A stretch of 64,000 bases of DNA from positions 1 to 64,000 of the forward strand of contig CAJAIA010000022.1 in assembly GCA_903939735.1 (NCBI GenBank). The letters are read 5' to 3'. The stretch comes from an uncultured Ignavibacteria bacterium (lineage in GTDB: Bacteria > Bacteroidota > Ignavibacteria > Kapaibacteriales > Kapaibacteriaceae). Both the position numbers and the translations under genes were made by a program. Below, piece after piece: positions 60,404-61,118 of the stretch (positions are counted from its first letter, which is position 1; the number at the start of each line of letters is the position of its first letter). The notes beneath the pieces are model-generated. The model was not told the DNA's origin, ran no database searches, and saw nothing but the letters and a program-made list of their open reading frames with translations.

Positions 60404-60441
60404 GCGCGTCACGGTGCACATGCGAACGCACACGATAGTGC

Positions 60442-60732
60442 ATGAAGCGCAATTGCATTTACATCATGTCTAACAGATATCGAACAGTGTTCTATACGGG
60501 CGTCACATCATATCTTACGCGCCGACGCCAAGAACACCGCGAATCCGACGCTACAACATTCTGCGGACGCTACAACGTCCGGGACGTTATCTACGTCGAA
60601 TGGTTTGATGACATACGCGACGCCATCGCTCGCGAGAAGCAGATCAAGGCATACTCCCGTGCTAAGAAACTTCGGTTGATTGCTACCGATAATCCGACCA
60701 TGCGTTCACTCGAACCACCATGGTTTGGGTGA
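60442..60732 (+). CDS. GIY-YIG nuclease family protein
   Basis: 96-residue single-domain nuclease. The GIY-YIG core is YIMSNRYRTVFYTGVTS (first strand Y-I-M in place of G-I-Y, second strand Y-T-G), with the catalytic-helix Arg in LTRRRQEHR and the metal-binding Glu in AIAREKQIKAYSRAKKLRLI. This small stand-alone group is widespread in Bacteroidota and has no established role. It starts 38 bases after the response regulator. Immediately downstream (from 60766) lies an array of structured palindromic repeats. Confidence 0.9.
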   Translation: MKRNCIYIMSNRYRTVFYTGVTSYLTRRRQEHRESDATTFCGRYNVRDVIYVEWFDDIRDAIAREKQIKAYSRAKKLRLIATDNPTMRSLEPPWFG

Positions 60733-60765
60733 AGGGATCCCTCCCCCTCATTTCATTCGGGGTCT

Positions 60766-60921
60766 GGGATGACGCTGGGTCCCTCGCTACGCTCGGGCCT
60801 GCCCTGAGTGAAACGAAGGAGCCTGCCCTGAGTGAAACGAAGGAGCCTGCCCTGAGTGAAACGAAGGAGCCTGCCCTGAGTGAAACGAAGGGATGACGCT
60901 GGGTCCCTCGCTACGCTCGGG
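60766..60921. repeat. Array of GNA-loop mini-hairpin repeats
   Basis: Four tandem 24-base units (60797-60892), each holding CCCTGAGTGAAACGAAGG, are flanked by two identical 32-base copies (60766-60797 and 60890-60921) that each end in CCCTCGCTACGCTCGGG. Both core types fold the same way: C/G outer stem, tandem G-A/A-G pairs, a two-pair inner stem, and a three-base GNA loop (GAA, or GTA on the reverse strand). The inner stem changes GC/GC to GT/AC, a compensatory change. Part of the 386-base gene-free gap after the GIY-YIG gene. Confidence 0.85.
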
Positions 60922-60953
60922 ATGACGCGCCGCAGGTATAGGTTGAAATAGAA

Positions 60954-60990
60954 AAGGATCGTGGCGTGCTCGAAGCACGCCACGATCCTT
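60954..60990 (-). terminator. Terminator of the lipoprotein gene
   Basis: A perfect 17-base-pair stem (60954-60970 with 60974-60990) and three-base loop (TCG on the reverse strand), followed on the reverse strand by TTCTATTTC. It lies 129 bases past the lipoprotein stop, among the repeats. Confidence 0.75.
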
Positions 60991-61020
60991 GGTTGATTCT
61001 AAACGTGGTGCGTGCGTCAT

Positions 61021-61055
61021 CCCGAACCACGCAAGCGCAGCGCAGCGTGGGAGGG
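61021..61055. repeat. Variant mini-hairpin repeat with longer inner stem
   Basis: CCCGA at 61021-61025 and GAGGG at 61051-61055 keep the outer stem and G-A pairs of the array, but the inner stem is CCACGC/GCGTGG (61027-61032 with 61045-61050) around a larger loop. Confidence 0.6.
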
Positions 61056-61076
61056 AGCTCATCTTTTGCATGCGGT

Positions 61077-61093
61077 CCCTCGCTACGCTCGGG
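61077..61093. repeat. Isolated mini-hairpin repeat
   Basis: A third exact copy of CCCTCGCTACGCTCGGG, 26 bases before the lipoprotein stop. Confidence 0.7.
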
Positions 61094-61118
61094 CCTTCCC
61101 CCCTTCAATTCCCTACCC

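Follow-up and report, generated by a model that had tools for sequence, protein, structure and literature searches.

CGTC-tagged REPs, a common kind of short repeat in bacteria, consist of a CGTC (or TGTC or CCTC) tag beside a hairpin, with an uninterrupted stem of 8–9 bp starting with AT, a loop of 4–5 nt and a CCA tail. They ‘lack a dedicated transposase’, and no transposase gene was seen to be flanked by them in a survey that left their mover open (Di Nocera et al. 2013, PMC3733652). GIY-YIG proteins are not mentioned in that survey (PMC3733652), no paper linking GIY-YIG with REPs was found in the literature searched, and a 2006 survey of GIY-YIG proteins is silent on such a link.

For the GTAG-tagged REPs and REPINs, the associated enzyme is the RAYT (TnpA-REP), an HUH Y1 transposase. 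The system described here shares with them short chromosomal hairpins, an unpaired tag and a copy number tied to the gene, whereas its tag is CGTC and not GTAG. The likeness to REP elements and RAYTs had been drawn in an earlier note on this DNA and is apt as a working comparison, but the enzyme comes from a different superfamily (GIY-YIG, not HUH).

Ssn is a family of GIY-YIG site-specific single-stranded nucleases, reportedly presented by Chenal et al. in Nature Communications in 2025. It is said to cut single-stranded DNA at a sequence repeated in the Neisseria genome, and homologues with sequences of their own reportedly occur in many bacteria. Like Ssn as reported, the enzyme studied here is a small GIY-YIG protein whose probable cognate sequence is repeated many times per genome; by contrast, it is 30–40% identical to the main family, its repeats are GA-capped and the pairing is known here from sequence association. 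The Neisseria gonorrhoeae homologue (L122/L258) was recovered in the same family as the enzyme studied here and sits in a dense dRS3-like CGTC repeat array. Given Ssn, the pairing of enzyme and repeat is probably not new in itself and, if that report holds, the nuclease studied here would be a divergent member of a known pairing; the link to CGTC REPs, the mobility of the unit (inverted copies around the gene plus an empty site) and the residue-base rule described below may be new. Fold and catalytic residues are also shared with UPF0213 proteins (PDB 1zg2), Slx1 and the UvrC N-terminal domain, for which cognate repeats are not known.

The window, i.e. the whole stretch of 64 kb analysed here, belongs to a genome of 2.47 Mb. 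Its nuclease gene (Table 1) encodes a member of the GIY-YIG superfamily that matches PF01541 (E 4e-12) and keeps all signature residues, namely the two tyrosines, arginine, histidine, glutamate and asparagine (Y7, Y18-x-G20, R28, H32, E65, N84). The AlphaFold model is confident, and the closest solved structures are UPF0213 BH0048, the UvrC N-terminal domain and Slx1.

Table 1. Nuclease gene, tags and hairpin repeats in the window
Feature	Position	Strand	Core or tag (position)	Basis or remark
CGTCAC tag-like element	60407..60412	+		34 bases 5′ of start codon; position kept in 7/7 subfamily members
GIY-YIG nuclease gene	60442..60732	+		96 aa; catalytic residues intact; model pLDDT 94
Hairpin repeat, third form CCCC-GA-AT-GAA-AT-GA-GGGG	60744..60762	-	GAATGAAATGA (60748)	core scan
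GCGTCATC tag	60768..60775	-	GATGACGC (60768-60775)	sequence and tag scan
Type 1 repeat CCC-GA-GC-GTA-GC-GA-GGG	60780..60797	-	GAGCGTAGCGA (60784)	core scan
Type 2 repeats, four in tandem, 24-base period, CCCT-GA-GT-GAA-AC-GA-AGG	60802..60893	+	GAGTGAAACGA (60806, 60830, 60854, 60878)	core scan
CGTC tag terminating type 2 array	60892..60899	-	GATGACGC (60892-60899)	tag scan
Type 1 repeat with CGTC tag (GCGTCATCCCGAGCGTAGCGAGGGA)	60904..60928	-	GAGCGTAGCGA (60908); GATGACGC (60921-60928)	core scan
Long variant, CGTC-tagged, stem replaced, GA flanks kept	61015..61055	+	CGTCAT (61015-61020)	read by eye; tag from scan
Type 1 repeat	61076..61093	-	GAGCGTAGCGA (61080)	core scan

A scan for cores made of an outer stem, GA, two inner pairs, GNA and GA found eight between the nuclease stop and position 61118, against a mean of 0.002 in 1000 dinucleotide shuffles; the same scan gave zero cores elsewhere in the window and zero in its reversed copy. 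This bears out the seven or eight structured repeats previously noted behind the gene, and the paired change in their inner stem is real. The long variant, placed at about 61021-61055 with retained GA flanks, was also recognized by eye. Both repeat types of the earlier description are present, on opposite strands, but a third form (AT/AT) had been overlooked, giving three inner-stem versions together with GC/GC and GT/AC. The repeats do not begin 33 bases past the nuclease stop, as had been stated, the first core lying 16 bases past it, and the CGTC tag is an addition to that description. Within the repeat region, positions 60954-60990 hold a long inverted repeat, AAGGATCGTGGCGTGC-TCGAA-GCACGCCACGATCCTT, that is unrelated to the GA hairpins and may represent a terminator or some different element.

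Repeats of the kind considered here resemble the CGTC REPs, including dRS3 of Neisseria, in their CGTC/TGTC/CCTC tag, AT stem base, short loop, CCA-like tail and head-to-head dimers (PMC3733652). A tag beside a hairpin was found for the window repeats as well as for the wider set, and the typical form of the class occurs at other loci. Unlike CGTC REPs, the window repeats have a CCC stem, a GA/GA step, a GNA triloop and no CCA tail; because stem, loop and tail thus depart from the class, we regard them as CGTC-like and not as strict members of the four published families.

In the wider locus set, 271 of 322 repeats have loops of 4 nt, which read G-N-A-N on the tag strand (G in 252/271, A in 253/271). 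The GNA-type DNA mini-hairpin is a known stable form. As the complementary strand would read N-T-N-C, such a hairpin is possible on the tag strand alone. These one-sided loops would fit recognition of single-stranded DNA and indirectly favor the earlier proposal of selection on a single-stranded shape, but a protein reading the bases would conserve the same letters.

Of the four GIY-YIG genes in the genome, the two long ones have no repeats and the two small ones each lie beside some. The second small gene, on contig 44, is enclosed on both sides by a different repeat of its own, in inverted orientation, while the window has an array downstream of the gene and a single upstream tag only, without two-sided inverted flanking. 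Genome-wide, 73 cores were counted versus 41 in the reversed control, a modest excess. In the same order, most such genes are bracketed by a (C)GTCA-tagged palindrome in inverted orientation, the palindrome varying by gene. Loci of the window branch were read by eye because their GA-interrupted repeats escape a strict CGTC stem scan. The bare GAGYGNARCGA core was rejected as a repeat count: two genomes (G024 and G047) seemed rich in it, and hairpins whose outer stem was paired were absent from samples of 100 kb and 89 kb. On contig 44 (L035, 1-510), both the GIY-YIG ORF and the argininosuccinate lyase-like ORF next to it end in residues encoded by the repeats. A 52-base array is shared by the beginning of this contig and the end of contig 20, hence the assembly breaks at these repeats.

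A profile built from nine sequences was scanned against 84,980 genomes, and the best 80 loci, which span Proteobacteria, Planctomycetes, Chloroflexi, Nitrospirae, Omnitrophota, Parcubacteria and others, were kept. A CGTC REP was present within 300 bp of 66 of the 70 testable genes, compared to 119/736 (16%) of the other ORFs from the same loci, which served as controls. Two-sided inverted flanking, found for 44/70 genes but 6/736 control ORFs (0.8%), recalls the REPtron, in which a RAYT gene is flanked by inverted cognate repeats, and applies also to the second small gene of the genome studied here. Perfect inverted repeats of 15 nt or more spanned the gene at 32/76 loci versus 11/2975 control positions. 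Up to 150 bp from the gene the repeat density was 6.8 per kb, compared to 0.2–0.3 per kb at distances over 2 kb. Flanking repeats were absent from the long GIY-YIG genes (UvrC and others) examined here.

The repeat number followed the gene also at the level of whole genomes. Among 150 genomes sampled from the family of Pseudoxanthomonas gei, the 51 with the gene had a median of 53 repeats, none being at zero, and held 3,903 of the 4,233 repeats, whereas the median was 0 for the 99 genomes lacking it; the reversed-pattern control gave 0 across all 150. Gene and repeat numbers correlated with a Spearman coefficient of 0.78 in this larger of two clades, which speaks against repeat abundance being unrelated to GIY-YIG genes, the outcome that the earlier note had named as refuting its idea. 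No significant relation was seen in the second family (p 0.17), with 28 genomes of which just five lack the gene, a possible reason being that repeats of other types escape the fixed pattern. In 15 genomes lacking a confident gene match, 10–34 repeats occur, and 10 of these genomes have no match even at E 0.001; repeats can thus outlive or lack the enzyme. In one genome (G161, locus L307) no intact gene is present, and a broken GIY-YIG remnant occurs together with 14 repeats, the picture to be expected if an enzyme spreads its repeats and is then lost.

One position of the repeat, N in GTCAT-n-CC-N-GC, is identical on both sides of the gene at 67/67 loci, and differs between paralogues of a single genome (G061), where one gene goes with C, one with G and one with A. 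On the protein tree N is clustered (15 changes versus 36.5 when shuffled), the tree being poorly resolved and an independent-pairs test on supported branches amounting to one pair only. The most informative protein column is X in K-X-W-x-R, five residues past the catalytic glutamate. X is Lys in 61/65 C-type and 0/30 G-type loci, Glu in 22/30 G-type loci and Ala in 5/6 A-type loci. The mutual information between X and N is 1.11 of 1.39 bits (next column 0.75), a value reached in 0/2000 simulations of labels along the tree. The resulting rule (Lys with C, Glu or another non-Lys residue with G, Ala with A) was correct in 19/19 scorable cases from 36 loci fetched afterwards. In genomes with a single nuclease, the genome-wide share of C-type repeats had a median of 0.93 with Lys and 0.22 without it (p 8e-6).

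Read on the 3′ arm, Lys stands opposite G, Glu opposite C and Ala opposite T, which is ordinary DNA-reading chemistry. Residue X is presumed to contact the repeat base. In the window branch, read by eye, C is paired with Arg on contig 44 and G with Glu at L099 and L103; the window protein itself is off the rule, with Ala70 at X and G in the repeat, where the rule pairs Ala with A. At three loci (L254, L275, L278), the enzyme has Arg or His at X followed, two positions later, by Leu or Met, and the repeats read GTCATCCTCGC, a hint that the residue two past X might read the neighbouring base pair.

In our judgement it is highly likely that the gene product is a small site-specific endonuclease of the GIY-YIG type and that it recognizes the repeats, which would form a divergent, GA-capped branch among the CGTC-tagged REPs. 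As judged from sequence, the nuclease is very probably their cognate enzyme, because of the tight position, the inverted flanking, the repeat number tied to the gene and the single repeat type per paralogue, and because a residue of the active-site helix covaries with a repeat base pair both beside the gene and genome-wide. The earlier idea that the nuclease acts on dispersed hairpins of its own gains support from position, inverted flanking, the match of paralogue and repeat, and the residue-base rule. The enzyme would bind and cut the tag strand while it is single-stranded and folded, presumably during replication or repair or in incoming transforming DNA. Repeats would then spread as cuts are repaired from another copy, and a gene lying between two repeats might occasionally be carried along by the same repair. 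Since GIY-YIG nucleases are not known to rejoin DNA, such homing-like cut-and-copy appears likelier than true transposition.

A wider proposal, to which we give an even chance, is that small GIY-YIG nucleases are the missing dedicated enzymes of the CGTC REPs, read a one-residue hairpin code (3′ arm: Lys-G, Glu-C, Ala-T) and drive the spread of the repeats and of the repeat-gene-repeat unit, which would make them, beside RAYT, a second REP-enzyme system of independent origin. With an enzyme family named, a rule predicting the repeat and an empty site at hand, the question of the mover becomes directly testable, and the rule would help to choose sequence-specific single-strand cutters.

The nuclease could itself move repeat-gene-repeat units and solo repeat dimers, as is thought of RAYT for the GTAG REPs; we regard this tentatively, as a sharpening of the explanation above that does not exclude it. 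Besides the inverted repeats flanking the genes and the many solo head-to-head dimers listed across genomes, it draws on Azospirillum lipoferum 4B, of a species named in the CGTC survey (PMC3733652), where a repeat pair, the gene and another repeat pair lie between sufB and sufC. The entire unit is missing in five sister species of Azospirillum that are 90–96% identical around the site. However, this is a single insertion, a diverged spacer hides its exact ends and target-site mark, and no joining step is known for GIY-YIG enzymes. Moreover, the nuclease family matched 0 of 50,697 phage records and 34 of 72,556 plasmid records; it thus behaves as chromosomal rather than as a free element, with little sign of movement between replicons. 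A candidate empty site for the window element, in G009, was rejected: the response-regulator orthologue (80%) lacks a downstream GIY-YIG gene, but the neighbour is also different.

It is equally conceivable, though again short of probable, that the pair controls DNA uptake or recombination, with the nuclease cutting incoming single-stranded DNA at the repeats, as Ssn reportedly does in Neisseria. The N. gonorrhoeae homologue within its dRS3-like array and the joint retention of enzyme and repeats would agree with this, but the pair occurs in many groups without established natural uptake. That the gene merely tolerates ordinary REPs or terminators lying between genes is very improbable: REPs are intergenic everywhere and 16% of control ORFs have one nearby, but the enrichment, inverted flanking and genome-wide match would be unexpected, and the residue-base covariation contradicts both the passenger and the terminator reading.

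Upstream of the gene, a (C)GTCAC element lies 34–35 bases before the start in 7/7 members of the window subfamily, compared to a background of 32/719 20-nt windows (~4%). The element may be an autoregulatory site within the promoter of its gene.
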